Below are positions 5,348-51,480 of a DNA stretch of 64,000 bases, piece by piece. Below the pieces are notes generated by a model. It was not told where the DNA came from. It was given only the letters and a program-made list of their open reading frames with translations, and searched no databases. Both the position numbers and the translations under genes were made by a program. The stretch spans positions 186,001 through 250,000 of the forward strand of contig JAJDAT010000015.1 in assembly GCA_029261715.1 (NCBI GenBank), written 5' to 3'. How positions within the stretch are numbered: the stretch's first letter is position 1; each line of letters starts with the position of its first letter. Source of the DNA: Nitrospinia bacterium (GTDB lineage Bacteria > Nitrospinota > Nitrospinia > Nitrospinales > JAJDAT01).

Positions 5348-8179
5348 ATGAATCCCTCTTTAGAAAAACTAAGTAAAATCATTGAAGGCTTTGGAAAAGA
5401 AAACCTTTCCGACATTTTACATTTCATTTCTACAGGACTCAAAGAACTTCATAATTGTTCCATGGGCCAAATTTACCTGGAGGATCTTTACGAGGGAATG
5501 CTCATTTGTCATTATGTGACAGAAGAAAATCAAACTGAAGGCCAACCCCCAACACAGTTCATTTCTCCAAAAGACTCTTTAATTTACAAAGCTTTCTATG
5601 AAAATAAAGCTATTATTTCTTGGGATTTGCCAAAAGGAACGCTGAAGGTATCAAGCCCCATTGGACAAAAATCAGGAATAAAATGTTCTGCAGTTTTCCC
5701 AATTAGCTATCAACTACGCCCTATTGGCGCTTTAAGTTTGGATTGGATTGAGGAAAAAGCTCATCTAGCTGAAGACCAAATTTTAGACATTGAGTCGTTT
5801 ATTGCGATAAATAGTCCCGTCCTAGAAAAAGCAAAGAATTTTCATCAAAAAATTGAATTTTCTAAACATTTAGACCTTGCCCAAAAAAAAGAAGCGGCAT
5901 TGATGATGGTTCGCTCTGCAGTGAAACTAATTGATACATTAACTTTGGCTTCAGTATTAGTTCCAGCCGTCCCAAAATCTGTAAATAATCTCCAATTAAA
6001 AACTACAGATATGGTAGAAGTCCTCGCCGCTTATTCTAAAAATGAGGAAAATACCGAAATCTATAATACTAAAGATCAAATGAGTATCTTGGAAGACGAA
6101 AACTTGATAAATCGTATTCTCAAATACGATTCTGAAAAAGGACTTGTTGCCCAAGATCAGGTGTCTTCATCTATTTATATAGAAAATATCATGAACGAAA
6201 AGTTCGTGAGAAAACCTATCGCCGAAAAATTAGATTTAGTTTCTTTATATCAAATCCCTAAATTTCATAAAAAAACAGGACAATTCATTTGCGCCGTAAA
6301 TTACTACACTGAAACCCCTCATCAATTTAATTCTTTTGAAAAAAGACAGTTAGAAGAACACGCTTCTATGCTTGAAAAGCTCATTATGGATGAGGGCTTA
6401 GCTAGAATTGAAATTGAAGTGTTAAGCGAAATCGAACAATTATTATCAGATCAGGATACTTCTCTCCAATCTTTTCTAACAAAAATTATCGATAAAACAA
6501 CAGAACTTTTGGGAGCCGCTGGCGGTACTATTTCTATCTTAAAAACTATAGACGACAAACCATGGCTCATCGTTGAAGACGATAAAGGAAGCCTCGTAGG
6601 AGCGAAATCTAAAGGTTGGAAAAAAAGTCGTATTCCCATCCTAGCAGTTGGCGGGGAAGAACTCCCTAAGGACTCCCGGTCTTTAACAGGTTATTGCGCT
6701 CACTTAGCAAGACCCCTACTTGTTCAAAATGTTAAAGACACCATTCAAACTAAGGGTTTTTACAAAAGTCTGACAGATAACATACGTTCTGAAATCGCTG
6801 TTCCCATTATATTAGGAAACAACGTATTAGGAGTTATCAATCAAGACAGCTTTAGGAACCAAAAGTTTCGAAAAGAAGATAAAGATTTACTTCAAATAGT
6901 AGCCAGACTCATCAGCCCCAAAGTGTACAGCTTAATTCAAATCGAAAGCATTCGCGAAGAAATGAGCCAACTAACGCGAGATATTGAATATAGAGATCCC
7001 AAGGTTTCGTCATATTACTTTGGAAACGTTATTGGTAAAAGCGAAGAAATTCATTCATTAGTTAGTCAGATTGATATTGTCGTTCAATCCATCTGCAACA
7101 GAATGATGCAGTGGGAAAATAACGTTCATCCAGAAACTTTGATGGGATTGCCCTCTTTACTTATAACGGGTAGCACAGGTTCAGGAAAAGAGTTTTTCTT
7201 CAATAATATTTATTCGCGTTTAGATGAAATTTTCAGACGGGAAAAAGGGAAAAACTTTAAATTACTCGTCAAAAAAACAAATATCGCAGCCTATACAGGA
7301 GAACTCACCTACAGCGAATTATTTGGTCATAAAAAAGGAGCCTTTACAGGAGCAGAGTTTAATCGTTGCGGAATTTTGGAAGAAGCCGCTGGAGGAGTCG
7401 TTTTTATGGACGAGATAGGCGATATCGATCCAAAAACCCAAGTACAATTACTACGTTTTTTAGATACTGGAGTATTCACTAGATTAGGCGAGAACGAGTC
7501 TAGATATTCAAAGATTTTTTTCGTCGCAGCCACAAATAAAAACCTTAGAGAAGAAATTGAGATGGGAAGGTTTCGAGAAGATTTATTCCACAGGCTTAAC
7601 GAATTTAGCTTCCAAATCCCTTCTCTCAACCAAAGAAAAGAAGATATTGAAGATTTGGCTATACATTTTTTAGGAAAACTTTTTCGCACTCACTATAAAA
7701 ATGTAGAGGATACTCCAAAACCTATTTTAGCTCCTGAGGCCATTGGTTTTTTGAAGTCTTACAACTATCGAGGTAATGTTCGCGAACTTAGAAACATTTT
7801 ACTAAAAGCTATGTTATTTAGGAAAAGCTTAACCATTTCTAAAGAAGACATCGCCACCGCCGCCGGGTTACACGCAATTTCCCCTTTTTCAGAAAAAGAA
7901 TCCTCAAACGATTTAGTAATTGACCAAATTTTAGGAAAGATAGAATCTGGAGAGAGCAATTTCTGGGAAGAAATACATAAACCTTTCAAAAACAATCAAA
8001 TGACTAGGGATATGGTAAAAGCTATTATAGAAAAAGCTAAACTAAGGTTTAGCGCTAGTCTTCCAGGATTGGCCGTCAAAATGAAAGTTTGCCAAGACCC
8101 CGGAATTCCTTCAGAAAGGCCCAAGTTTGTTAGCTTTAAAAACTTTCTTTATAAAACAGTAAAAATTACTGAGAACTAA
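5348..8179 (+). CDS. GAF-domain sigma-54-dependent transcriptional activator
   Basis: The 943-residue protein has an N-terminal GAF-like domain (about 20-165), a second weak GAF-like region, and a clear GAF domain (about 360-535). A sigma-54 interaction AAA+ domain follows. In it I see Walker A as GSTGSGKEF (about 608-616), the sigma-54 contact loop GAFTGA (664-669), Walker B VVFMDEIGD (near 684) and the NVRELRN motif (about 809-815). The last about 60 residues look like a divergent helix-turn-helix region rather than a classic Fis domain. It should remodel sigma-54 holoenzyme in response to a small ligand or redox state sensed by GAF domains. The divergent flgB sigma-54 promoter is the obvious nearby target. 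There is no receiver domain. Confidence 0.88.
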   Translation: MNPSLEKLSKIIEGFGKENLSDILHFISTGLKELHNCSMGQIYLEDLYEGMLICHYVTEENQTEGQPPTQFISPKDSLIYKAFYENKAIISWDLPKGTLKVSSPIGQKSGIKCSAVFPISYQLRPIGALSLDWIEEKAHLAEDQILDIESFIAINSPVLEKAKNFHQKIEFSKHLDLAQKKEAALMMVRSAVKLIDTLTLASVLVPAVPKSVNNLQLKTTDMVEVLAAYSKNEENTEIYNTKDQMSILEDENLINRILKYDSEKGLVAQDQVSSSIYIENIMNEKFVRKPIAEKLDLVSLYQIPKFHKKTGQFICAVNYYTETPHQFNSFEKRQLEEHASMLEKLIMDEGLARIEIEVLSEIEQLLSDQDTSLQSFLTKIIDKTTELLGAAGGTISILKTIDDKPWLIVEDDKGSLVGAKSKGWKKSRIPILAVGGEELPKDSRSLTGYCAHLARPLLVQNVKDTIQTKGFYKSLTDNIRSEIAVPIILGNNVLGVINQDSFRNQKFRKEDKDLLQIVARLISPKVYSLIQIESIREEMSQLTRDIEYRDPKVSSYYFGNVIGKSEEIHSLVSQIDIVVQSICNRMMQWENNVHPETLMGLPSLLITGSTGSGKEFFFNNIYSRLDEIFRREKGKNFKLLVKKTNIAAYTGELTYSELFGHKKGAFTGAEFNRCGILEEAAGGVVFMDEIGDIDPKTQVQLLRFLDTGVFTRLGENESRYSKIFFVAATNKNLREEIEMGRFREDLFHRLNEFSFQIPSLNQRKEDIEDLAIHFLGKLFRTHYKNVEDTPKPILAPEAIGFLKSYNYRGNVRELRNILLKAMLFRKSLTISKEDIATAAGLHAISPFSEKESSNDLVIDQILGKIESGESNFWEEIHKPFKNNQMTRDMVKAIIEKAKLRFSASLPGLAVKMKVCQDPGIPSERPKFVSFKNFLYKTVKITEN

Positions 8180-38651: not shown

Positions 38652-39671
38652 ATGTCAAAATCGTGGAAACTATTTTTAGCTACTTTCTGGTTTGTGATCG
38701 TCGTTATCTGGAGTCTTGGAATTTTATTTTATTTCCAAGCCGCCTATTCTGTATCCGAAGAATATAAATCCGTTCCATTCAGAATTAAAAAAGGCATGAC
38801 TTTAAAACGTGTCTCAGTAAAACTAAAAGAAAAACAACTGATCAAAAGTTCTCTGTCCTTCCAAATCCTGGCTTATGTTAAAGGCCAACAAAACAAACTT
38901 ATGGCTGGCGAATTCGAACTATCTCCTTCGATGCCTCCATTAGAATTATTAGAAACTATTACTTCAGGAAAAACAATTCTCTACGAAGTAACGATCCCAG
39001 AGGGACTAAAAATTGCCGAAATCGCTGAGCTACTGGGCGAAAAAAAGATAGTCCCAGCGAAAGAATTTATTCAATGGACGCATAGTAAAGAATTAATAGA
39101 TTTATTTAAAGTTCCCGGATCATCCCTCGAAGGTTATCTTTTTCCGGATACTTATCGATTTTCAAAAAATATTCGAGCAAAAGAATTAGTAAAAAAAATG
39201 ACGGAAACCTTTTTCAAAAAAGCGTTAAAACCCGGATATAAAGCGCGTGCCCAAAAGTTGAATTTTGATTTTAATCAAATCGTTACTCTTGCCTCTATCA
39301 TTGAAAAAGAAACAGGCCAAGCTGCGGAAAGAAAAAAGATTTCTTCCGTATTCCACAATCGGTTAAAAAAGAATATGCGATTGCAAAGCGACCCAACCGT
39401 GATTTACGCAATTCCTAACTTTGATGGCAATATTCACAAAAAAGATTTATCCATAAAATCTCCCTATAACACATACAAAGTTAAGGGCTTGCCGCCAGGC
39501 CCCATCGCAAACCCTGGCCATGCATCGATTGTCGCCGCCCTTTATCCAGAAACGTCAAAACATTTGTATTTCGTTTCTCGTCAAGATGGAAGCCATCAAT
39601 TCTCAAACAATTTAAAAGACCACAATCTAGCTGTAAGAAAGTATCAACTAAGAAAAAATTCTAACCGCTAG
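38652..39671 (+). CDS. mltG: Endolytic murein transglycosylase MltG
   Basis: The 339-residue protein matches MltG/YceG, the inner-membrane lytic transglycosylase thought to terminate nascent glycan strands. It has an N-terminal membrane helix (about 12-32), a LysM-like segment (FRIKKGMTLKRVS) and the catalytic domain. The catalytic Glu is in LASIIEKETGQAAER; further blocks are RLQSDPTVIYAI, SPYNTYKVKGLPPGPIANPG and YFVSRQDGSHQFS. A conserved gene elsewhere, it is here alone between hisC and a convergent SDR gene, overlapping the latter's stop by 4 bp. Confidence 0.94.
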   Translation: MSKSWKLFLATFWFVIVVIWSLGILFYFQAAYSVSEEYKSVPFRIKKGMTLKRVSVKLKEKQLIKSSLSFQILAYVKGQQNKLMAGEFELSPSMPPLELLETITSGKTILYEVTIPEGLKIAEIAELLGEKKIVPAKEFIQWTHSKELIDLFKVPGSSLEGYLFPDTYRFSKNIRAKELVKKMTETFFKKALKPGYKARAQKLNFDFNQIVTLASIIEKETGQAAERKKISSVFHNRLKKNMRLQSDPTVIYAIPNFDGNIHKKDLSIKSPYNTYKVKGLPPGPIANPGHASIVAALYPETSKHLYFVSRQDGSHQFSNNLKDHNLAVRKYQLRKNSNR

Positions 39672-40525
39672 TATTTTTTGGATTCCGCATTTGAGGCGCG
39701 AGTTAAAACAAAATCCATAAGGGATTGAGGAAGAATCCGCTTGAGATACGCAAAAAGGTAGGTCGGAAATGTGACATAGTAGCGCGGCTTTGGTTTAGGA
39801 TTTTCTAAAGCGTCAATTACTTTTTTTAATACCGCTTCGGGGGGCAAGGTAAATGGATAGCTAGGCGTTTCATTAGTCAATCGACTAATCATCGCTTGAT
39901 ATCTATCTTTATGAGGACTTTTATCAATATCAATATTTTCTCTAAATTTCTTATAGGCATTATCGCGAAATTTACTTTCAATTGGCCCGGGTTCGACTAA
40001 AGAAACAAATATATTTGTTCCGGCCAATTCTATTCTCAAAGCGTCGGAAATTCCTTCCAGAGCAAACTTGCTAGCCGAATAGGCTCCTCTAAAAGGCATG
40101 ACAACAAAACCTAAAACAGAGCTATTTTGAATAATTCTTCCGCTACCCTGCTTCCTCATAATGGGAAGAATTAAATTAGTTAGCTCAACCAATCCCAACA
40201 CATTAGTTTCAAATTGTTCTCTCAAAGCTTGTCGAGTTAAATCTTCAACAGCTCCGGGTTGTCCAAACCCTGCATTGTTGAACAAAGCAAACAGTTTGCC
40301 GTCAGTTTGCTCAAGAATTTTATTTAACGTTTCTCGAATAGAGTTGGAATCGTTCAAATCTAAAACAAAGCTTTCTAACCCTTCATTTTTTAAATTCTCT
40401 ACATCTTCTGGATTTCTTGCGGTTGCAAATACTCGATATCCTCTTTTCTTAAGGCCTTTGGCAACACATAAACCTATACCAGTGGAACACCCAGTAATCA
40501 ATATCTCTTTGGCAGAAGAACTCAT
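39668..40525 (-). CDS. Short-chain dehydrogenase/reductase
   Basis: The 285-residue protein is a classical SDR with NAD(P) motif ITGCSTGIGLCVAKGL (TGxxxGIG), the NNAG motif ALFNNAGFGQPGAV, the catalytic Ser in QNSSVLGF and the catalytic Y-x3-K in GAYSASKFAL. A C-terminal hydrophobic helix may attach it to membrane. Substrate unknown. I choose ATG 40525, with a GAGAAG Shine-Dalgarno; a TTG at 40540 is in frame, but overlaps the upstream gene. It is the last gene of the five-gene minus-strand operon 46491-39668, only 4 bp after the diguanylate cyclase stop, so it may be an operon passenger. Confidence 0.9.
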   Translation of the reverse strand: MSSSAKEILITGCSTGIGLCVAKGLKKRGYRVFATARNPEDVENLKNEGLESFVLDLNDSNSIRETLNKILEQTDGKLFALFNNAGFGQPGAVEDLTRQALREQFETNVLGLVELTNLILPIMRKQGSGRIIQNSSVLGFVVMPFRGAYSASKFALEGISDALRIELAGTNIFVSLVEPGPIESKFRDNAYKKFRENIDIDKSPHKDRYQAMISRLTNETPSYPFTLPPEAVLKKVIDALENPKPKPRYYVTFPTYLFAYLKRILPQSLMDFVLTRASNAESKKY

Positions 40526-40529
40526 TAAA

Positions 40530-41561
40530 TTACTTCTCAAAGCTCACTTGATTCCTACCATTTTTTTTAGCCTTATATAAAGCTTTATCGGCGCGATTAA
40601 AAACACTCTTTGTCGTATCGCTTTCTTTAACACAAGTAATCCCCAAGCTCGCAGTTATAATGAATCCTTTTTCGATAAAATCCAGATTTTTTGCTTCAAT
40701 CATTCTTCGAATTTTGTCGGACGCTTGAATAGCCGTATTTGTTTCCATTTTATGCATCCAGATAACAAACTCTTCTCCACCGTACCGAAAGACTTTATCC
40801 GTATCTCTAATTGTACTTTTCACGACACTCGCCACAATCTTTAAAATTTCGTCACCTTTTGCATGTCCATATGTGTCGTTAACTTTTTTAAAATGATCAA
40901 TATCCAAAACAACAATAGCAAAAGGGTGTTTATACCTTTCGAATTCTTTAATAAAGCGGACTATTTCTGAGTCATAGGCGTTTCGATTATAAACGCCAGT
41001 TAACGAATCTATGAGCGCTTCTGCCTCTGTCTGTTCCAATCTCTTGGTCAGTTCGCTAGTTTTTTCTTTATATTTATCAAGCTCGACTTTCAAAGATTGA
41101 GTTTCTTCTTTTATTTTGTTAGCTTCTGAAATAATTTGATCTTTTATCTCAAGGATATCGTTAGTAACTTCTGATTGGCGCATCTTATCAATATGCTCCG
41201 TTAAATTACTGTCGACTCCGCCAGAGAAAACGGCAAACTCCTTAATAGTATTGCCCAAACTGACGACCATTTCTCTTAACTCTTTCTTTTCATTTTTTAT
41301 GAGTTTTTCATCTTCGATTTTCTTTTCAAAAAACAGCTTAAAGGCTTTCCCCGATGAAGAATCTAATTCCGGCTTAACTTTTTCTAAAACGCTCTTTAAC
41401 TCGTTGAGTTTAGAAAAAAAAGGGTCTTCTGAATCAACCATCTTCTTAATTCCATCAATGCAAATAGTCAAAAGACCGGAAATCCTTTTTGTAAATTGAA
41501 TCGCGGATAAGTTTTCTTCCCCAGACTTATCGGCTTTGTAATCTAAATCATCGGAGCTCAT
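40530..41561 (-). CDS. Diguanylate cyclase (GGDEF)
   Basis: The 343-residue protein has a helical, coiled-coil-rich N-terminal part (about 1-170), with no membrane helix, and a C-terminal GGDEF domain. The active-site motif is GGEEF in FRYGGEEFVIW (about 260). The product-inhibition I-site RxxD is intact as RDTD, five residues before GGEEF. It should make cyclic di-GMP from GTP and be feedback inhibited. Its unknown sensor is cytoplasmic. The gene begins 30 bp after the caspase-like gene on the same strand, so it is likely controlled together with the CHASE2/caspase genes. Confidence 0.92.
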   Translation of the reverse strand: MSSDDLDYKADKSGEENLSAIQFTKRISGLLTICIDGIKKMVDSEDPFFSKLNELKSVLEKVKPELDSSSGKAFKLFFEKKIEDEKLIKNEKKELREMVVSLGNTIKEFAVFSGGVDSNLTEHIDKMRQSEVTNDILEIKDQIISEANKIKEETQSLKVELDKYKEKTSELTKRLEQTEAEALIDSLTGVYNRNAYDSEIVRFIKEFERYKHPFAIVVLDIDHFKKVNDTYGHAKGDEILKIVASVVKSTIRDTDKVFRYGGEEFVIWMHKMETNTAIQASDKIRRMIEAKNLDFIEKGFIITASLGITCVKESDTTKSVFNRADKALYKAKKNGRNQVSFEK

Positions 41562-41591
41562 GAAACTAAATTCCTCTTCCCTAAAGAAAAA

Positions 41592-43250
41592 TCATTGAAA
41601 ATCTCGGACTAATCGAACACTACTTGAAAAAAATCCGCCCATATTAGTATCGCGTATTGTTGTTTGTCCGTTTCTAAAATTAAAAGTCTTGACGCACGTT
41701 GAATCTAGCCCATTAGTAATACCGCAGCTTTTTGAATCCACCAAGTTGGAACTCCAATACCAATATCCTCCTCCATCTTTAAACACAATGGGGTATCCAA
41801 CCGGCTTAGCATTCATCCTCTGACTAAAAGCCCCTCTTTTATTAGTATACGAAAAACTTTTTCGTTCTAATTTTTTGTTGAATATTGATTGATATTCTAG
41901 CACTTCAGGAAGTCTCCAATCGTCAAATCCACCTTTTTTTTCAAAATTCATTTTATCAATCCAAGCCAAAATTTCTTCTCGACTATGAGGAAATCCACCT
42001 TCTAAATTATAAAAGTCCTCCGTCATCCACATCAAGCGTGTTCGAATATCTACAGCAGTTTCGTTTTTAAAAACGATCCAAGTTCCTATCTTCTTTGCTT
42101 TACCTGATACTATCATACGTCTTGCCCATTTCTTCTTTTGAGCAAAAGACGATTTCTTTTTTTTATTTTCTTCTCGAAGTAATTCTAGTCTTTTTTCTTC
42201 AATTGAAATTTCGCGTTTAACCTCGGCCAATTCTTTTTGATACTCGTGGATTTTTTGATTTTGGGATTGGCCTTCCATTGGAACCGTCTGGATATCCTTC
42301 CCATAAAGTTTTATCATTGAAGATTCTACTGAGAACACAAAATCTCCTTTATCAAGATTTGGATCTCGAATGGTCCCATACTGTGGGTGCTGACTACCTC
42401 TTGTATAATCTATAACTTTATTTTTCAAAAACTCGCCCAATTCTGCTCCAGTCAAAAAGCCATCTTGATTTAGATCGCCTTCTCCATTCAAAGCCGATAC
42501 AAACATCCTCCTAAAAACACTATCGTCCGACACTTGTTCTCCCGCGCTACCAGAAGTGATAAACTGCCTCACTGGCAGATTGATCTTATATTGAACACTT
42601 TTTGGTATTGCTCTACTAAGGGAAAAAAACGACCCAGAAAAACAACTATCAAATAAAAACAATGCATGACGAGCTTGAATCCGTTTCGCATAAACTTCAA
42701 TTTGTTGCATATCCATGCCAGTGGCTAAAAACCCATTTAAATCCTCTTCCGGATCAGGAGCGTCTATCGGCACTAGATATCCCATTTGGGCTCCATAGGA
42801 TAATTTCTGCGTGTGTCCATGCCCTGCAAAGTAAACCAATAATCTGTTTTCTTCCGCCAATCCATAGCGGCTAATAAAATTATCAAAAGCGTCTTCTAGT
42901 TCTTCTTTTGTAGGATTAGTAATAACCGTAACTAAAAAACCTATTTTGGTTAAAACTGCTTTTACCTCTTCAACATCTTTTTCAACGCCTGGTAAGTCAG
43001 GCCAACCAGAGTTATAATCGCTCGCTCCAATAATAAGCGCATAACTTTTTTGGTAAATTTTCTGAAGAGATATCTCCTCAACAACCTGACTAGGTGAGGA
43101 TTTAACGGTAGGAGTAGGAACAATTCCTCTTTCTTCGGCAAAAACTTTTAAAGTTTGGAAACTATAAATAATTGCCGACAAACCTAAAAACAGTCCATAT
43201 AAAAAAAATCGATTCAAAAATTTTCTATAAGTTTTTATAGCGTTTGTCAT
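41592..43250 (-). CDS. Membrane-anchored caspase-like (C14) protease with EF-hand and DUF1566 domain
   Basis: The 552-residue protein has an N-terminal membrane helix (about 14-31), which would place the rest outside the cytoplasm. A caspase-like domain (about 67-280) carries the catalytic His in YFAGHGH (H144) and Cys in FDSCFSG (C203). Within its end lies an EF-hand-like calcium loop, D259 to E270 (GDLNQDGFLTGAE). After a coiled-coil stretch (about 325-375) a DUF1566 (Lcl) domain follows (about 400-550), with RLMWMTEDF, DDWRLPEVLE and GGYWYWSS. It thus looks like a complete, calcium-gated cysteine protease. The start overlaps the CHASE2 gene by ATGA. Its substrate is unknown. Confidence 0.9.
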   Translation of the reverse strand: MTNAIKTYRKFLNRFFLYGLFLGLSAIIYSFQTLKVFAEERGIVPTPTVKSSPSQVVEEISLQKIYQKSYALIIGASDYNSGWPDLPGVEKDVEEVKAVLTKIGFLVTVITNPTKEELEDAFDNFISRYGLAEENRLLVYFAGHGHTQKLSYGAQMGYLVPIDAPDPEEDLNGFLATGMDMQQIEVYAKRIQARHALFLFDSCFSGSFFSLSRAIPKSVQYKINLPVRQFITSGSAGEQVSDDSVFRRMFVSALNGEGDLNQDGFLTGAELGEFLKNKVIDYTRGSQHPQYGTIRDPNLDKGDFVFSVESSMIKLYGKDIQTVPMEGQSQNQKIHEYQKELAEVKREISIEEKRLELLREENKKKKSSFAQKKKWARRMIVSGKAKKIGTWIVFKNETAVDIRTRLMWMTEDFYNLEGGFPHSREEILAWIDKMNFEKKGGFDDWRLPEVLEYQSIFNKKLERKSFSYTNKRGAFSQRMNAKPVGYPIVFKDGGGYWYWSSNLVDSKSCGITNGLDSTCVKTFNFRNGQTTIRDTNMGGFFSSSVRLVRDFQ

Positions 43251-44392
43251 ATTGCTTCCCTCGAAGTTAAACTTCTATCAGCCAATACACTAAGTATCAT
43301 TGCTAAAATTGGCGACAAGATTGGAAGAATTAAACTCGCGTTAAAAAATACGCCACTTATTATTAAATAAAATGACGTTAGAAAAATTATTCCCAAATAT
43401 CTCTTTACACCTTTACCTGAACTACAAAATATTACGGCTAAAACACTCAATATTAGAGATAGAGAGTGAACGGTAGATTTGTGGGCTTCTTTCAAAAAAG
43501 ATTCTTTCAGCAAAGAGTTAGTTAAAGCTATTTGAAATTTAAATAATTTTTTGCCTTCCAATTCTTTATCTGAGGAAAATAAACAGATAAACACTAATTT
43601 ATCTTTAACTTCGGCCTTTGCAATGGTTTCAATAACTGATTTTCGATTTTGTTTTACTTGCACAGTATTTTCTTCAAGATTATTTGGTACTTCAAACATC
43701 GTCATACTATCCATATCAGTTGGAATCGATATCTCAATCATCTTGTCTTTTAATTCAACGCGAGACGACAATAGTTTTATTTCTGGGCGCTCAACTTTCA
43801 AATAGTGAAACCACGATTGCATTGCAAAAGCGGGAATCAACCGTTCTTCATACTCCAACCATAGTGGAATTTTTCTAAGCTTCCCAAAAACATCTATATA
43901 AGCGTTGGAATGCGCAAAGTATTTTTTTTCGAGAGTCGATAAGTTTGCCAACGTATTTTTTTTGTCCAACGACAAAAAATTAACTAGCGACGAAACTTGA
44001 ACAATACCATTTGCTTTGCCTAGAGAATCGCTATTATGAGTAGACACGTCAAAACGTTCACTTGTCCGCCCTCCAACGCTTACAACCAATTTTGACTTTG
44101 GAACTTCTTTAAGCCAGTCCAAATTTTCTCTAAACTCATTCTCTGAAATATAAATTGAAATTGTTTTTGCGTCTTGTCTAATTAGCTCCTTAATTATCGC
44201 CTGATATGACGACGATAAGTTTCCGCCGACTTCAAAAACTTTTATTTTTTCCGATAACGTAGAAGGTTCTTTTAACTTAAAACGCCAATCTATAAAGCTT
44301 CCTTCTAATGCAAACCAATAAGGCTTAAAGACTGCCGATAATAAAATCGCGACGATAGTTCCAGCCAACCCCAAACCTAATTTTCTCTTCAT
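43247..44392 (-). CDS. CHASE2-domain membrane protein without output domain
   Basis: The 381-residue protein has an N-terminal membrane helix (about 7-23), then an extracytoplasmic CHASE2 domain (about 30-300). It is recognised by the ALEGSFIDWRFKLKEPS entry motif and alternating Rossmann-like strands. Two to three C-terminal helices (about 308-375) follow, after which the protein ends with SREAI. In most CHASE2 proteins the helices lead to a cyclase, kinase or GGDEF domain; here nothing follows them. Signal must pass to a partner. The stop overlaps the start of the caspase-like gene as ATGA, arguing for a complex with it. Confidence 0.85.
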   Translation of the reverse strand: MKRKLGLGLAGTIVAILLSAVFKPYWFALEGSFIDWRFKLKEPSTLSEKIKVFEVGGNLSSSYQAIIKELIRQDAKTISIYISENEFRENLDWLKEVPKSKLVVSVGGRTSERFDVSTHNSDSLGKANGIVQVSSLVNFLSLDKKNTLANLSTLEKKYFAHSNAYIDVFGKLRKIPLWLEYEERLIPAFAMQSWFHYLKVERPEIKLLSSRVELKDKMIEISIPTDMDSMTMFEVPNNLEENTVQVKQNRKSVIETIAKAEVKDKLVFICLFSSDKELEGKKLFKFQIALTNSLLKESFLKEAHKSTVHSLSLILSVLAVIFCSSGKGVKRYLGIIFLTSFYLIISGVFFNASLILPILSPILAMILSVLADRSLTSREAI

Positions 44393-44406
44393 AATAATTA
44401 ACTGAA

Positions 44407-46491
44407 TTAATTAGAACTTGAAGCAAAATCTCCAACTGAAACTTTGCGAGAACCGCGCATGTATATTTGGTTTTTTTCATGAATAAAAAACTCTGTATAC
44501 GCTCCTCCCCAAGACCTCGATTGCCTTGAATTAAACCGGCTAGCCAAGGCTTTTACTGACTTTAGACCTGCAATCTCTTGCTTTGAAATACTATGGAATC
44601 CATTCTGTAGATTTAACTTTATTGGAAAATCTGACGACTTCGTCGCTAAAGCTCTTATTCTTTCTAATCCTGGAGGACCTAAAATATTAAAATTAAAATT
44701 ATAATCAGGAGCCGGAATCTTAATTTTTTCTCCAGCTTTTATAAAGTTTGATTTTCTGTAGGCGTTTGGAAAAATCACGGTGATATCTCCATTCGCTCCA
44801 ACGTCAAGAATCGTTAAATAACAATTCTTTTTAGCAGTAACCGTAAAAATCAAATTTTCTCCAATCTGATAATCTTTTTTATCCGCGTAAACTTTTATGC
44901 CAAACTCATCGTTTTTAGGACTTCCAGAAACAAGTCGGTTTAACTCATAATCATATTCATCCCCATCATTCTCATCGCTACCGTCAATTGGAGTAAACGA
45001 AACGATTGGACTGTCTATTTCGGCCAAATCGTCTGGATGAATCTCTTCTCTTTCAATTTGCCCGTATCCTGAAGACACAATATTTCCTGTTTTTGTCCGA
45101 ATGAGTTGCGCTCTCATTTCTAACCCGCCTCTCTCTAACCTATAACTACCCGTAACGTAATAATCCAGTTTACTTTCTTGCGCAAATTCGGAAGCGCTCA
45201 GCTCTTTTTTATTTGGAGGCAAACTCTTTATCTCTAGATCTTCAACTTGCACCATCAATGTTGAAAAGTCTTCTTTAAGGATTCGACTAAATGGCGTTGG
45301 ACGATTCAAACGTAGATCCCGAAATTCGAATATTCCGAGAGATGGGGACCCACCTGGCGGTAAATTCTGAATAACTTGATTAACTAGCTCCGTAACTCCC
45401 TGCTTCCACTTCAAAGACTTATTGGTCGCCCATTTCGGCAAATTAATGGCATATGAAAAATTAACTTTTTTGTTTTTTAAAGTGGTTAAGAATGTTTGAA
45501 CTATCTGTTTATCAAATCGTGATGCAATTTTTTCAAAATCAATTTGCGCCGCAACAGTATGGGATTTTTCCTTGTAAGAATTAATATTCCTCACCGACGC
45601 AGAAACAATACCATCTACACCACTTATAACTTCGTAATCAATATCCCCATCCCCTGCTTCGTATTTCATTTTTACTGGAATACCCGATATAGCTTTTCCA
45701 GAACCTGTCGTAAGAATTTGAGCGACTAAAGGTTCTGGCAATCCTTTAAATCGAGTCAATTTTTGATTATTACCAGACACAATTTGTATATTAATACCGT
45801 TTACAATTTGCCTAATGAGAATCCCAAAATCGGTTATAACTGGTAATTCTGGAGATTGAGAGGAACGGTTGATCACTTTTTTAGCGCTAGTTAACGAAGC
45901 TAATTCGCTCGTTTTGTCATAACCAGACGTATAAAATCCAATCGCATCCAAAAATCGACCGGCTTCTTCTGCATTCTTGCCACTATTCAATAAGTTATTA
46001 AGTTTTTGAGAAATACTTTGAATTTTTCCGTCCACTAAATTAGAAGACACTTTCCGATCCAAAACAGCCAGAGAATAATAAACCTTGGACTTTCCTTCGT
46101 ACCAACCATCCCGTATTTCGACTCCCTCTAAAATCGTATCAACTTGAGTTTCTATCGCTAATTCAATTCTGGATTTATTTATTGAAGAATAATCTCTCAA
46201 TATAGATTGAACTCGTACTTTCAAGTTTTTTGCTAACTCCGCCCGAGCAGATTCATTTGCAGAAACATAATTTTTTTCCGAAAAACCAACTCCTGTTAAA
46301 TAAAAAGGATCTGGATATTTAGAATGTCCTCGTCCAACAACCCAACCTGGCGTTGGTTTTGAAAACTGTGAAGAGGCTTGAGGGGCAACTTTTTCCGCTT
46401 TTACTCCGGAACCAAGCAAAGTTTTCCCACAACTATTAAGAAACAAAAAAAGCCCAACAACCGTTAAATTAAAGACAATTCGTTTAAACAA
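44407..46491 (-). CDS. LPP20/CsgG-like/DUF4384 lipoprotein
   Basis: The 694-residue protein has a lipobox (LNSC, lipidated C21) and multiple envelope domains. An LPP20-like domain (about 45-165) contains GVGFSEKNYVSANESARAEL. A middle segment of Ig-like character (about 230-330) follows. Then comes a CsgG/FlgO-like region (about 390-500, with SLGIFEFRDLRLNRPTPFSR and DYYVTGSYRLERG). A DUF4384 domain lies near the end (about 535-600, including YLTILDVGANGDITVIFPNAY). DUF4384 often accompanies caspase-like genes. It should sit on the inner leaflet of the outer membrane or on the inner membrane. It is the first gene of the minus-strand operon, 14 bp before the CHASE2 gene. Confidence 0.85.
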   Translation of the reverse strand: MFKRIVFNLTVVGLFLFLNSCGKTLLGSGVKAEKVAPQASSQFSKPTPGWVVGRGHSKYPDPFYLTGVGFSEKNYVSANESARAELAKNLKVRVQSILRDYSSINKSRIELAIETQVDTILEGVEIRDGWYEGKSKVYYSLAVLDRKVSSNLVDGKIQSISQKLNNLLNSGKNAEEAGRFLDAIGFYTSGYDKTSELASLTSAKKVINRSSQSPELPVITDFGILIRQIVNGINIQIVSGNNQKLTRFKGLPEPLVAQILTTGSGKAISGIPVKMKYEAGDGDIDYEVISGVDGIVSASVRNINSYKEKSHTVAAQIDFEKIASRFDKQIVQTFLTTLKNKKVNFSYAINLPKWATNKSLKWKQGVTELVNQVIQNLPPGGSPSLGIFEFRDLRLNRPTPFSRILKEDFSTLMVQVEDLEIKSLPPNKKELSASEFAQESKLDYYVTGSYRLERGGLEMRAQLIRTKTGNIVSSGYGQIEREEIHPDDLAEIDSPIVSFTPIDGSDENDGDEYDYELNRLVSGSPKNDEFGIKVYADKKDYQIGENLIFTVTAKKNCYLTILDVGANGDITVIFPNAYRKSNFIKAGEKIKIPAPDYNFNFNILGPPGLERIRALATKSSDFPIKLNLQNGFHSISKQEIAGLKSVKALASRFNSRQSRSWGGAYTEFFIHEKNQIYMRGSRKVSVGDFASSSN

Positions 46492-46912
46492 AAAGATAAT
46501 CTCTCCTCAAAACCTAAATAAAAAATAGGGTAATAAAAATGCAGCAAAAAATATTCCCAAATCATGATTAAGGAAATATTAATTTAAATCTATTATTATT
46601 AGATCTCCATCAAAACTCCAAATAAAAAAATTAGAAAAATAAAATCAATAACTTACAAGACATAGCGAATAATTATTATTATTTTTCTAAAAACCCACAT
46701 GTAACTAAATCATTTATTTTATCGACTATAAGGTAAAAAGTTTGCCTTTACCTAAAATAATGAATTAAAATTTTTATTAGCAGATATATCTCTAATAATT
46801 TAAGTCAATAGTGAAGCTAGCTGTAAGCTTTGGCATTAATATTGTATGTTTTTTAGAGAAACAGTTTTGAGTTCATTAAGTTAATACACCGATTCTATAT
46901 TAGGAGGGAACC
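46492..46912. other. Divergent control region of the CHASE2/caspase locus
   Basis: This very AT-rich 421-bp spacer separates the two arms of the locus. It contains an inverted repeat AGGTAAA/TTTACCT (46731-46753, 9-nt loop). A sigma-54-like sequence (TGGCAT, 5 nt, TTGTA; 46831-46846, plus) points to the gene at 46913, but its -12 element reads GT instead of GC. No gene is visible. Confidence 0.5.
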
Positions 46913-47503
46913 ATGGTTCGGAAATACACGTCCCATTTTATTATCTCGCTAACAATAATTGCCTTTATGGCTATAGGTTGCTCTAGCGGTCCACCCGAAA
47001 GGATGACTCTTGAGAAAGCCAAAGCCCCTGAATGGGTCGTTAAGGGAGGCGGAGCAAAAGAAGATAGTAATGGAAGAGCTTTTTATGGAGTTGGTTCCGC
47101 ATCGGGAATAAAAAATTTTTCTTTGCAAAGAACTGCCGCTGACGATAGAGCTCGTAACGACATTGCAAAGGTTTTTGAGTTTTATACCAAATCATTAACT
47201 AAAGATTATCAAGCTTCGACAACGGCAGGTGACTTTAAAGCGTCTTCAGAAGAACAAAACGTTGAATCTGCGATTAAGACTGTTACATCCGCGACATTAT
47301 CTGGAGTTCAAATTATAGATCATTGGGAACACCCTTACCGAAACGAAATGTTTTCATTAGCTCGACTCGATTTGGAAAAGTTTAAAGAAAATCTAGACCG
47401 ATATAAAGAGCTTTCAGAAGCCGTTAGAAATGCCGTAAAACAAAGAGCAGACAAGCTTCATGAAGAAATGGAAGGTGAAGTCTTGAAGAAGGATAATCGT
47501 TGA
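46913..47503 (+). CDS. LPP20 family lipoprotein
   Basis: The 196-residue protein has a lipoprotein signal with a lipobox (AIGC, C23) and an LPP20-type domain: APEWVVKGGGA, RAFYGVGSASGIKNF, then ADDRARNDIAKVFEFYTKS and LSGVQIIDHWEHP. The C-terminal third is helical and charged. It parallels the N-terminal domain of the divergent DUF4384 lipoprotein. An excellent Shine-Dalgarno (AGGAGGG) precedes the ATG at 46913. The stop overlaps the next gene (TGATG), hence coupling with the trypsin-like protease gene. LPP20 proteins are outer-membrane lipoproteins; the function is not clear. Confidence 0.88.
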   Translation: MVRKYTSHFIISLTIIAFMAIGCSSGPPERMTLEKAKAPEWVVKGGGAKEDSNGRAFYGVGSASGIKNFSLQRTAADDRARNDIAKVFEFYTKSLTKDYQASTTAGDFKASSEEQNVESAIKTVTSATLSGVQIIDHWEHPYRNEMFSLARLDLEKFKENLDRYKELSEAVRNAVKQRADKLHEEMEGEVLKKDNR

Positions 47504-48489
47504 TGCCTCGGCTATTAAGCTATCTTTTTATTCTTAGCATAACCTCTCCGGTTTTTGCCGTAGACTTTAGTCCTAAGCAAATTTATAGACAAGCCGTCGA
47601 TGCTGTAGTTCTGGTAACCGCTGCAGAACTTAAATCGCGGTCACATAGTATAGGCACCGGAGCAATTATCCGCAAAGACGGCTTAGTTATAACCAACGCG
47701 CATGTTGTTTATAACGATGAATTAGGACGAATCTATAGAAAGTTAAATGTTTATCTAAAACCCCCCCGGGTTACGGGTAATATTCAACGGGACGCTACTC
47801 GCAAATATAAAGCGTCAATCGTTCATTATTCAAAGTCTTTAGATTTAGCTGTTTTAAGACTTAATAATATCCCTGCGTGGCTCAAGTTAAAAACAATTGA
47901 GTTCAATGACTCCGATGACGTTGAAATAGGAGACCCCGTTGTAGCCATTGGCCACCCCGAACAAGGAGGACTTTGGACTCTAACTACGGGTACCATCAGT
48001 AGTCAACTCGATGATTTTCAAGAAGTTTCAGGCAAAAATGTTTTCCAAACAGAAACAAGCATAAATAAGGGGAACTCCGGCGGACCATTAATTGACGCTA
48101 ATGGATACATGATTGGCATAAACTCTAATATCGCCAGGAAAGGTAAAAGTGGCACGGTCATCACTTCGATAAACTTTTCAATAAAATCAAATGTTGCGCG
48201 TCGATGGCTAAGGAAGGTTGGGTTTTCTTTTGGTTCGATTGCTAACGTTGCTCAAACTCCTTCCAATATTCCATCTGAATCGCCAGCGCCACGAATTCTT
48301 CCCGTTCCTATTAGTCCTAAAATTATCGTCGCAGAACCTCCTAATAAATCTTACCAGAGAGCGATAGAACCTCGCAAAGTTAAGAAGAAACCAAAGCCTA
48401 CATCTCCATTGCAAAACGTAGAAGAAGAAATGGAAGGCTTAATGGATCAAATGAAAAAAGGAACCAGAAAAAAAACTTTTTTTGACTAA
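47503..48489 (+). CDS. Secreted trypsin-like serine protease (S1C, no PDZ)
   Basis: The 328-residue protein has a signal peptide (about 1-19) and a chymotrypsin fold with the complete triad: H67 in VITNAHVVYND, D114 in SKSLDLAVLRL and S192 in NKGNSGGPLIDAN. It resembles DegP/HtrA proteases, but has no PDZ domain; instead a Pro-rich, basic C-terminal tail (about 250-328) with a short coiled-coil ends in KKTFFD. It acts in the periplasm. Start ATG 47503 overlaps the previous stop (TGATG). Its position opposite a caspase-like protease gene suggests a two-protease envelope system. Confidence 0.9.
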   Translation: MPRLLSYLFILSITSPVFAVDFSPKQIYRQAVDAVVLVTAAELKSRSHSIGTGAIIRKDGLVITNAHVVYNDELGRIYRKLNVYLKPPRVTGNIQRDATRKYKASIVHYSKSLDLAVLRLNNIPAWLKLKTIEFNDSDDVEIGDPVVAIGHPEQGGLWTLTTGTISSQLDDFQEVSGKNVFQTETSINKGNSGGPLIDANGYMIGINSNIARKGKSGTVITSINFSIKSNVARRWLRKVGFSFGSIANVAQTPSNIPSESPAPRILPVPISPKIIVAEPPNKSYQRAIEPRKVKKKPKPTSPLQNVEEEMEGLMDQMKKGTRKKTFFD

Positions 48490-48612
48490 CCCAATTAATC
48501 AGAAAACATTTAGGGACGTTAAGAGTCTCTCTAATGATTCGTTAGTTTACCCCCTGTTAGACCAATCTAGTTTCTAAATAACTTTTTATCCATTCGGGAA
48601 GGCAAGAATAGA

Positions 48613-49122
48613 ATGAGGTTTTGGACGCTTAATTTTCTTTTGGCTTTGTATTTAGTAATTGGCAGTTCTTCAAGCTCTTTCGCTTTTAAGCTTTACTTGG
48701 ATGATACCTTCACAGACTACATCGAAGTTGAAGAACAAGACTGCGAAGTCCACAAAACCGAAGGAGGTGAAATCACTCTAGGTTTTAAAGCAGGGAACTT
48801 TCTTTTTAGCGTCGGTCCAGAAATTACTTTCGGAATATACGAAGGAATAGATTGGGACGTTACCGTCCAAAGGCTTATCGCACGATATCAACAAGTATGT
48901 ACCCGCTACAACACAGGTAGTTTAACAAAAAAGGATTACGATAATAGAATTGCTGAAATTGAGACCCTAGAAAAAGAGGCGCACAAACTTTACCAAAAGA
49001 TGATCAAAGAAAAAGCTCAAAAGCGCGACAACGTTTTTCGCGAGCTTGATCAAGACGTTGGAAGATTTGAATCTTATAGAGAAGAATACGAGGATATTAA
49101 TCGGCAATTAAAAGGACATTAG
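48613..49122 (+). CDS. Secreted protein of unknown function
   Basis: The 169-residue protein has a signal peptide (about 1-24, ending SSFAF), a beta-rich N-terminal half with two cysteines (C43 and C96), and a helical, coiled-coil C-terminal half (about 105-165). I do not recognise a domain. It lies 124 bp downstream of the trypsin-like gene on the same strand and may belong to the same unit as the LPP20 lipoprotein and protease. Confidence 0.6.
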   Translation: MRFWTLNFLLALYLVIGSSSSSFAFKLYLDDTFTDYIEVEEQDCEVHKTEGGEITLGFKAGNFLFSVGPEITFGIYEGIDWDVTVQRLIARYQQVCTRYNTGSLTKKDYDNRIAEIETLEKEAHKLYQKMIKEKAQKRDNVFRELDQDVGRFESYREEYEDINRQLKGH

Positions 49123-49360
49123 ACGACTTTTTAAAAACAGTAACTCAAACAAAGCGATCTATCGAGCACCTTTAAATTAATTTTGGAAAAAAATTTTACG
49201 ATATTGAGACTCAAAAAACTAATTATTTAAATAAATTCAACCGAATAAGAAGGAGAGATTTAAACCAATCAGCAATCTTAGAATTGTAATGATATTGTAA
49301 CTTTACTTGCCTACAAGCAAGGGCTATATTGATTCTTATCAATCAAATCCTTCCAAAAAA

Positions 49361-50038
49361 ATGAAAAATCGATCTATTTTACTTTTAGTTTTCCCCTTTA
49401 TTTTAATGGGTCTATCTCAAAACGATATGCCGATAGAAGTCGAAAAACCTCCCCAAAGCTACGCAATAGCTAATATTGACGCACAAAACGCTAAACAATT
49501 AGCTTCTTTCGGGAAAAAGCTTCTCAATGAGGGGCGATATGAAGAATCTTTGGAACCTCTAAAAAACGCTATACAACTGGAGCCTAAAGATGCAGACACA
49601 CATTTTCATTTAGGCTTAGCTTATGGGGCTTTGGGTAAGCAAAAAGAAAAAGTAAATCATTATAAAGAAGCCACTCGTTTAAACCCAGAACACGCTCACG
49701 CTCTTTTTAAATTAGGGCTAGCCGAAGCCGCCCTAAACAGACATCAACAAGCGATCGGTTATTACAAAAATGCTTTATACTCCGATCCTTATCTTCCCAA
49801 AGCAAATTACTTTCTAGGGCTTTCCTACTACTTGTCTGGCCGTTTCAAGGAAGCTTTAGCTCCCTTGAAAAAGGCGTTAGATTCTGAACCAGATAACCCC
49901 CAGGTTTATTACAGTCTTGGTTTAGCTTTCCTAAAGTTAGGAGAATACAAAAATTCTCTCAAACCTCTAAAAAACGCTCTTTCAAGAAAACCTAACTTGC
50001 CGCAAGAAATGGCAAAAGTCGATTTAGCTCAAAATTAG
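49361..50038 (+). CDS. Secreted TPR-repeat protein
   Basis: The 225-residue protein has a signal peptide (about 1-20) and five to six consecutive TPR units of 34 residues from about residue 45. They carry typical motifs such as ALKNAIQLEPKDADTHFHLG, ALFKLGLAEAALNRHQQAI and YYSLGLAFLKLGEYKNSL. It is a protein-protein adaptor, likely periplasmic. I prefer ATG 49361, which gives a clean signal peptide; an in-frame TTG at 49307 would add 18 residues. Upstream, GTAAT at 49286 and GTAAC at 49297 are 11 bp apart, a weak echo of the Pho-box-like repeats. The 3' end is 10 bp from a convergent lipase gene. Confidence 0.8.
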   Translation: MKNRSILLLVFPFILMGLSQNDMPIEVEKPPQSYAIANIDAQNAKQLASFGKKLLNEGRYEESLEPLKNAIQLEPKDADTHFHLGLAYGALGKQKEKVNHYKEATRLNPEHAHALFKLGLAEAALNRHQQAIGYYKNALYSDPYLPKANYFLGLSYYLSGRFKEALAPLKKALDSEPDNPQVYYSLGLAFLKLGEYKNSLKPLKNALSRKPNLPQEMAKVDLAQN

Positions 50039-50048
50039 ATCTATTAAA

Positions 50049-50888
50049 TCATTTTTCAGATAAAGCAATAAACTCGCTTAAAGATTTTAAGTATCTAGCA
50101 ATGTGATGATCTTCAACATCAATGCTGTCAATATTATCCCAAAAACTTGTAACGCTAAAACTATCTGCGGCATGATGGCTTAAGAAAACAAATCTTGGAG
50201 GGTCTTTTAGAATAAGCTCTGGTCCAAAGTGTCTGTAAGCTCCATGAAAAGCGCTTACCAACGTTAATGGAGGAACTAAAGGGACGGGATCTTTTTTATT
50301 AATCACTCTTAATAATGGCAAAAATTCTAGTTTATCCATTCCTTCTTTGTTGGTGACCTTAGGCTGCCCAAATGTTATCGTTTTCTCAACGCGATATCCC
50401 TCATAATGCAGATAAGCTTCTATAATAACGGCAATAGCTCCACCTAAACTATGGCCCGTGACCTTGAAAGAATAGTCTTTTAGAAGTTTAGGCTTGATAG
50501 CCATGTATGTTTGCATCGCCGTTTTTTGAAATCCCCGATGAAAATATACGCCGACAATTGGATCTTTCACTTTCATATATTCAACATCTTCTTTGACGTT
50601 CTTCAAATTGTCCGTCCCTCGCACTGCAATCCACTGCAACTTTTTTTCGAGATCCGTTTGGATAAATACCTTTACTTTTAATTTAGGAAGCGTTTGGATG
50701 AAAACTTCTTTTCCAAATTGATTGCGAATATCTTCATCTGACTGGTAAGTTGCGGAGGACCTTTCTAGATAAGGCAGTATTTCCTTAAAATTAAAGTTTT
50801 GCGGGTCTGTATTTATAGGCAAAGTATTTGCCGTGCACGCAAATAAACAAATAACGCTTATTAATAAAACAATGCGGAATATCCTCAT
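50049..50888 (-). CDS. Class 3 lipase-like lipoprotein
   Basis: The 279-residue protein has a lipobox (LFAC, C18) after a short signal peptide, and a class 3 (fungal type) lipase alpha/beta-hydrolase fold. The nucleophile elbow is VTGHSLGGAIAVI, and a downstream NKKDPVPLVPP supplies the probable catalytic Asp. A C-terminal DHHIARY would give the catalytic His. It would hydrolyse acyl esters at the inner surface of the outer membrane or cell surface. I start it at ATG 50888, which gives the proper lipoprotein signal; GTG 50936 and ATG 50903 are in-frame alternatives. Stands alone, convergent with the TPR gene. Confidence 0.82.
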   Translation of the reverse strand: MRIFRIVLLISVICLFACTANTLPINTDPQNFNFKEILPYLERSSATYQSDEDIRNQFGKEVFIQTLPKLKVKVFIQTDLEKKLQWIAVRGTDNLKNVKEDVEYMKVKDPIVGVYFHRGFQKTAMQTYMAIKPKLLKDYSFKVTGHSLGGAIAVIIEAYLHYEGYRVEKTITFGQPKVTNKEGMDKLEFLPLLRVINKKDPVPLVPPLTLVSAFHGAYRHFGPELILKDPPRFVFLSHHAADSFSVTSFWDNIDSIDVEDHHIARYLKSLSEFIALSEK

Positions 50889-51480
50889 ATTAATGCTTAA
50901 CATATCAAATTTACCTAACCAGTTTAATTTTTGCACGTCGCGGCTAAAAGAACTTCCTTTAAAAAATTAAGGAAACTTTTGCCAAATGATTCACTCAATA
51001 CATTATGACTAAGTATTTTTGGCATGTAAAATACTATTTTATCACCCATAAAACACAAAATTAAAACCTTAGTAACTAGATAAAACATAACTCACAATGA
51101 GGAAGTATAATTGTAAATCTAGACAAATTATCTCTTATAAACAGATTCTTTACAGATAGTTAGAGTATGGCTGGAAAAAGAAGGCGTTCAATAAAAAAAA
51201 TGTTAAGCGTTTTAAGGTTCCGGTGTTAGTAACACTCCGAATCGGTCAACCTTGAGGATAAGATAGGTTTGTGGTTTGCGTATTACTCTTAAAACTTAAT
51301 TGCTAGCTATGGGAAATTAGCCTGAGATATGTGACTTCGTTTTTACTTCTTTGATTATTAAAAACCTCTTTAGGCCAAACCAAAAGTGATCTAAGAAAAA
51401 TCGATTCAACCTCTTCTTGCTTCCAAGCAGAAATTTTCAAAACAACACTTTAAGCGCTAAAGAAATCAACTAGACAAAAA
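50889..51480. other. Spacer with a possible transposase remnant
   Basis: This 592-bp region has no intact gene. The lipase promoter must lie in its first part. A short frame at 51167-51229 resembles the N-terminus of IS21-type transposases and is listed separately. I see no inverted repeats or target duplication. Confidence 0.4.
51167..51229 (+). pseudogene. Possible IS21-type transposase (istA) N-terminal remnant
   Basis: The 20-codon frame MAGKRRRSIKKMLSVLRFRC resembles the usual IS21 IstA opening (MAGKR-x-SM-x-x-IREVLRLK). After the stop, the next frame reads GVSN then NRST, which looks like the following GLSNRQIA...SRST block with a deletion. The match is short and no inverted repeats were found, so this may be chance. 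Confidence 0.3.

Follow-up and report, generated by a model that had tools for sequence, protein, structure and literature searches.

The 64,000-nucleotide window analysed here, a stretch of contig JAJDAT010000015.1 (GCA_029261715.1) from the 5.3-Mb genome of a Nitrospinia bacterium, carries a two-armed locus that, on balance, we take to encode an inducible envelope-protease response, which appears to be controlled by sigma-54 in relatives and to have been rewired in this genome. The core comprises two lipoproteins of predicted outer-membrane type, a trypsin predicted to be periplasmic, and a protein termed P169, whereas the accessory proteases differ between genomes.

Organization of the locus

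The eight genes of the locus and its immediate neighbours are as follows.

39668 to 40540, minus strand: SDR (short-chain dehydrogenase; PF00106), with its ATG start probably at 40525
40530 to 41561, minus strand: cytosolic GGDEF diguanylate cyclase (PF00990)
41592 to 43250, minus strand: caspase-like protease, predicted to be exported, with a Peptidase_C14 domain (PF00656, residues 69-255) and a C-terminal Lcl_C domain
43247 to 44392, minus strand: CHASE2 sensor (PF05226) of 381 aa with 1+3 transmembrane helices and no output domain
44407 to 46491, minus strand: arm A gene 1, a 694-aa lipoprotein with LPP20 and DUF4384 domains (Pfam), core of the system
46913 to 47503, plus strand: arm B gene 1, an LPP20 lipoprotein (Pfam LPP20), here LPP20b
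47500 to 48489, plus strand: arm B gene 2, a secreted trypsin-like protease (Pfam Trypsin_2)
48613 to 49122, plus strand: arm B gene 3, P169, secreted and strongly conserved

All ORFs lie at the coordinates given in a preliminary description of this DNA, and its domain assignments and intergenic distances agree with Pfam and with the coordinates. The gaps in arm A are 14, −4 (an ATGA overlap), 30 and 4 bp, the last counted from the SDR ATG. Most proteins of the locus, in the window and in relatives, carry a signal peptide or lipobox. Just past arm B lies a class 3 lipase with a lipoprotein-like N-terminus (50049-50936), which adjoins a TPR protein (49307-50038).

Recurrence across Nitrospinota

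Nitrospinota is the phylum that includes marine nitrite oxidisers. In a comparison set of 77 Nitrospinota genomes, which includes no sister from the window genome's own family, the arm A lipoprotein (LPP20, CsgG-like and DUF4384) is present in nine, including this one, and these represent all four families of the order. The raw tally was 16 genomes, from which seven (G020 and six of family f9) were left out because only one domain or a partial lipoprotein matched. The divergent layout seen in the window, with the lipoprotein facing LPP20b, trypsin and P169, recurs among these genomes. One genome (G055) instead encodes LPP20b, trypsin, P169 and the lipoprotein in a single direction, and the two arms can therefore be regarded as one unit. 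P169 is found in seven of the 77 genomes, always together with the arm A lipoprotein; the 68 genomes without the lipoprotein all lack P169 too (Fisher p=1.5e-8). Variation exists even in the core: G017 retains the lipoprotein, LPP20b and trypsin without P169, and the lipoprotein of G022 lacks the LPP20 part. The locus is duplicated in G026 and G049.

Caspase genes also track with the core. The sole caspase of each of four genomes (G013, G017, G022 and G026) lies less than 10 kb from the lipoprotein, and G049 has two caspases, one on either side of it. There are four caspases in G015 and five in the window genome, with one of them in the locus in each case. If caspase genes were placed at random, a gene this close would be expected with a probability of 0.0008 to 0.006 in each genome; G012 and G055, whose contigs measure 3.9 and 5.1 kb, did not enter the caspase comparison. 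Among relatives, the accessory proteases vary and include caspases, CHAT proteases and lipoprotein trypsins on WD40, Sel1, TPR or FGE scaffolds. More specifically, the caspases of relatives are joined to FGE-sulfatase-like, WD40 or SH3/Ig domains, and some proteases carry Sel1 or TPR repeats.

The neighbourhood comparison proposed in the preliminary description thus found recurrent association rather than the lack of recurrence that would have counted against a system. It upholds the view of the two arms as one recurrent, envelope-targeted unit, to which the caspase and CHASE2 genes belong given the proximity of caspase to lipoprotein and the CHASE2 slot in relatives described below.

Outside Nitrospinota, the search for the three-domain LPP20/CsgG-like/DUF4384 protein yielded nothing except one partial match. 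This match, on a 3.7-kb contig labelled Flavobacteriales (L094), is 39% identical to part of the arm A lipoprotein and is probably a binning error, or else a transfer. Carriage by viruses was rejected because viral contigs gave generic trypsins only, and carriage by plasmids because these gave DUF4384 matches only and no P169.

The preliminary description had counted the cyclase and the SDR as members of the system, with c-di-GMP as a secondary output, and neither proposal is supported by the comparison. Full-length relatives of the GGDEF protein occur in many Nitrospinales genomes but at sites without linkage to the locus, also in genomes that carry the two, and no close relative of the SDR was found in 40 genomes of the same order. 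A c-di-GMP output was therefore rejected as a conserved part. By this sequence comparison, the two genes are neighbours rather than conserved components, although they may be co-transcribed with the locus here.

Lipoproteins, trypsin and P169

The arm A lipoprotein comprises LPP20 (residues 48-145), a CsgG/LpoB/FlgO-like domain (about 360-490) and DUF4384 (541-619). The FlgO match falls just under the Pfam cut-off, and in structure comparison the predicted fold of this middle domain matches LpoB, PelC and GNA1162, which is consistent with an outer-membrane lipoprotein extending into the periplasm. It therefore appears to share its fold with lipoproteins of the LpoB/CsgG/PelC/FlgO type, but differs from them in joining LPP20 and DUF4384 to that domain. 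The DUF4384 region of the model has low confidence, and alignment of CHASE2 and the arm A lipoprotein against solved structures returned nothing useful. No Pfam family matches P169, and its structure model is weak (pLDDT 57).

The trypsin carries the complete triad ascribed to it previously, and an alignment of seven proteins shows H68, D115 and S193 to be invariant. Like HtrA, DegS and DegP it is an exported trypsin-like domain with a full triad, but Pfam detects Trypsin_2 alone with no PDZ domain, so that the trypsin-plus-PDZ arrangement of HtrA is lacking. Instead, the protein has a proline-rich linker and a conserved acidic C-terminal tail.

These likenesses raise the alternative that the locus performs housekeeping quality control of the envelope, with DegS/DegP-like stress proteases and LpoB-like lipoproteins acting on peptidoglycan synthesis and with no role in attack or cell death. 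The resemblance of the trypsin to HtrA protease domains and the LpoB-like predicted fold of the CsgG-like domain would both fit such a role. However, a locus present in only nine of 77 genomes, duplicated in two of them, equipped with variable proteases on WD40, Sel1, FGE and CHAT scaffolds and devoid of a PDZ domain is not what this role would lead one to expect, and we consider it rather unlikely.

The putatively exported caspase

The caspase matches Peptidase_C14 (PF00656) with E=4e-20 and 73 bits, and its His/Cys dyad is intact (GHG at 143 and DSC at 201). It thus combines the p20 fold and dyad that define orthocaspases. The preliminary description of a membrane-anchored caspase-like protease holds for the protease but not for the anchor: the N-terminus resembles a cleavable signal peptide (with cleavage between ...LKVFA and EERG), and its hydropathy stays at or below the threshold for a strong membrane anchor in every stretch of 19 residues. 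A signal peptide with no anchor suggests that the caspase is probably soluble in the periplasm. An Lcl_C domain at its C-terminus (398-549) is a new addition to the description.

Comparisons with defence systems gave no assignment. The caspase scores 63 bits against the EACC1-associated caspase model NF047832, for which the cut-off is 140, and PADLOC reported no full gene set for a known anti-phage system, only a partial match to a generic caspase, along with matches to generic trypsin and GGDEF-type proteins.

Searches with the caspase gave 4-23 matches, mostly via Lcl_C, in every Nitrospinales genome searched, an expansion of Lcl_C-type domains. Diversification of the Lcl_C domain by a DGR was rejected because no DGR reverse transcriptase was found in the genome. 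The only reverse transcriptase found there is a defence type, RT-Toprim_I-C (711 bits), which is located on another contig (L017:6304-9853; G000:C20). A caspase gene distinct from that of the locus follows it in the same orientation after about 420 bp. These two genes possibly form an RT-caspase pair.

CHASE2 and its sigma-54-fused relatives

The window CHASE2 protein scores 31.4 bits with PF05226, above the cut-off of 26.3. Its predicted helices (3-25, 305-329, 331-356 and 340-373) give one N-terminal and three C-terminal segments on either side of a periplasmic CHASE2 domain, the topology of a receptor, and the sensor is thus complete. As the preliminary description had it, there is no cytoplasmic output domain, since the protein ends about 8 residues past the last helix.

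In relatives, the CHASE2 slot is occupied by a 906-919 aa protein with the order CHASE2, coiled coil, Sigma54_activat AAA+ domain, lid and HTH, and a recognisable Fis-type HTH (HTH_8) is present in most. All seven CHASE2 relatives found outside this genome are such sigma-54 fusions, as judged by Pfam for three and by alignment for all seven, with two of them supplied by G026. The window protein aligns with the first ~380 residues of these relatives, at 21-26% identity to their CHASE2 part, and then stops, with neither AAA+ nor HTH. Because CHASE2 is always fused to a sigma-54 activator in relatives, mostly beside sigma-54-like promoters, its ancestral role at the locus was probably transcriptional.

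No separate gene for the lost activator half was found in this genome. The search returned 17 matches; they centre on the AAA+ core, not one spans the coiled coil and C-terminal extension, and an orphan activator holding the lost half was rejected on this basis. One of the 17 lies elsewhere in the window, about 31-39 kb from the locus: a 943-aa protein with GAF and sigma-54 AAA+ domains (5348-8179), which is a candidate activator in trans. The CHASE2-sigma-54 gene also occurs without the lipoprotein core (G050 and G020). In three instances, two in G026 and one in G020, it is followed by a gene for a 167-168 aa exported protein of no known family, with the gene ends overlapping (L068:1917-2420, L069:5685-6191 and L080:773-1279).

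The loss of output from the window CHASE2 makes direct gating of the caspase, as proposed in the preliminary description, possible as a derived state. On this model, ligand binding to CHASE2 releases or activates the caspase, both proteins having periplasmic domains and overlapping genes. The ATGA overlap that joins the two genes, the fact that no other CHASE2 output is left in this genome, and the finding of AAA+ core matches only where an orphan activator might have been all speak for it. So does a published Trichodesmium protein in which caspase and CHASE2 receptor are physically joined (PMC2853523, PMC3501461). However, that protein is a single polypeptide whose caspase is predicted to be cytoplasmic, whereas the locus encodes two proteins, a caspase predicted to be exported, and in addition lipoproteins and a trypsin. 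Moreover, CHASE2 in relatives carries a transcriptional output of its own, and its gene does not always adjoin that of the caspase. We regard direct gating as improbable.

Promoter elements and GCATGGA repeats

Candidate sigma-54 promoter elements lie upstream of both arms in the window.

46831 to 46846, plus strand: sigma-54-like −24/−12 element TGGCATTAATATTGTA, a putative promoter 82 bp upstream of the LPP20 gene of arm B
46543 to 46558, minus strand: weak sigma-54-like element GGGAATATTTTTTGCT, a putative promoter 67 bp upstream of the arm A lipoprotein gene

The window element GGGAATATTTTTTGCT is in register with GGGTATGGATATTGCT of relatives. By motif search, candidate −24/−12 elements precede both arms in G026, G013, G017 and the window, with those of G013 the weakest, at distances from the start codon of 54-67 bp for the lipoprotein and 82-131 bp for LPP20b. 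The combined probability for elements upstream of both arms is p=4e-10 over four loci and p=3e-4 for the window alone, where the sigma-54 weights are hand-written and the p values count related loci as independent. No significant sigma-54-like site was found at the loci of G015, G012 and G055, which show no CHASE2 gene. The exception is G049, a genome 78% complete, where such sites are present and a CHASE2 match is absent.

G026, G049 and G013 carry repeats of GCATGGA in the region that separates the arms, and G017 has one copy there; the window locus has no such array. Where both motifs exceed their thresholds, GCATGGA lies 79-197 bp upstream of the sigma-54 sites, and it accompanies six of nine sites in G022 (P=0.002) and five of eight in G049 (P=0.006). 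One repeat/sigma-54 pair in G049 stands between the caspase and the lipoprotein and would serve both. A 19-kb region around the CHASE2-sigma-54 gene of G022 (L074, G022:C1:289000-308000) contains nine sigma-54-like sites and 12 copies of GCATGGA. Most of the G022 sites precede genes for small exported proteins, an arrangement that points to a local, larger regulon.

That the window CHASE2 is a mere relic, a decayed regulator kept by chance while the arms are constitutive or under an unrelated activator, would accord with its low identity to relatives and its missing AAA+/HTH domains and GCATGGA array, but we think it unlikely for a gene with an intact 381-aa frame and all four helices that lies 14 bp from the preceding gene, overlaps the next, and retains sigma-54-like elements upstream of both arms.

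Relation to known systems

The nearest published relatives appear to be the EACC1, EACC2/TRADD-N, bDLD and NACHT-linked conflict systems, which, as presented in the survey by Kaur et al. (PMC8195603), likewise carry caspase and trypsin-like effectors on interchangeable scaffolds. The same survey lists CHASE2 as one variable sensor of EACC2-type proteins. As described there, however, the architecture of such systems rests on effector-associated domains, EACC proteins or STAND NTPases, whereas our locus consists mostly of exported proteins with LPP20/DUF4384 lipoprotein partners. The CHASE2-sigma-54 relatives share the Sigma54_activat AAA+ domain, lid, HTH_8, −24/−12 elements and upstream repeats with activators of the NtrC/FleQ family, but their input is a membrane CHASE2 receptor; the window protein, having no AAA+ domain, is not a sigma-54 activator.

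Among open-licence papers, we found none joining CHASE2 with sigma54 or sigma-54, none joining any two of DUF4384, LPP20, CsgG and FlgO, and none whose title concerns a Nitrospina caspase locus. The preliminary description could name no described system of this composition, and none has come to light in these papers. The pieces are known, and the locus belongs with bacterial caspase/trypsin effector loci; we found no account of their being combined, exported and, as predicted, controlled in this way.

A model for the locus and its implications

The favoured reading, an inducible envelope-protease response, would operate as follows in sister genomes. A membrane receptor of the CHASE2 type, joined in one protein to a sigma-54 AAA+ activator, would sense a periplasmic signal and, as the motifs suggest, bind the GCATGGA repeats between the divergent arms. 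The −24/−12 promoters of both arms would then fire, those of caspase and lipoprotein standing back to back in one genome, and the proteases would be exported to their lipoprotein partners in the envelope. The steps from CHASE2 to sigma-54 follow the known biology of enhancer-binding proteins. In the window genome, the activator half seems to have been lost while the sensor and the sigma-54-like elements were kept, and CHASE2 would therefore act either via some other activator or through direct interaction with the products of its own operon. We take the most probable function to be regulated proteolysis in the envelope when the cell is stressed or attacked, a role suggested by the variable proteases and the patchy distribution of the locus.

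A bolder version, which we offer as speculation, makes the locus the envelope counterpart of cytosolic bacterial caspase systems. A CHASE2-sigma-54 one-component switch, on receiving a periplasmic signal, would release a flood of caspase, CHAT and trypsin proteases into the envelope, where they would dock on outer-membrane lipoproteins and kill or remodel the cell or an intruder. In the window genome, this switch would be split and the sensor would act on the proteases directly.

Most of what is known about bacterial caspases concerns cytosolic effectors. Here, an exported caspase comes with a predicted receptor, promoters and partners, which makes its induction and function directly testable. 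The CHASE2 membrane receptor would be a new input for sigma-54 activators, and the window offers a natural case of a receptor stripped of its output domain.
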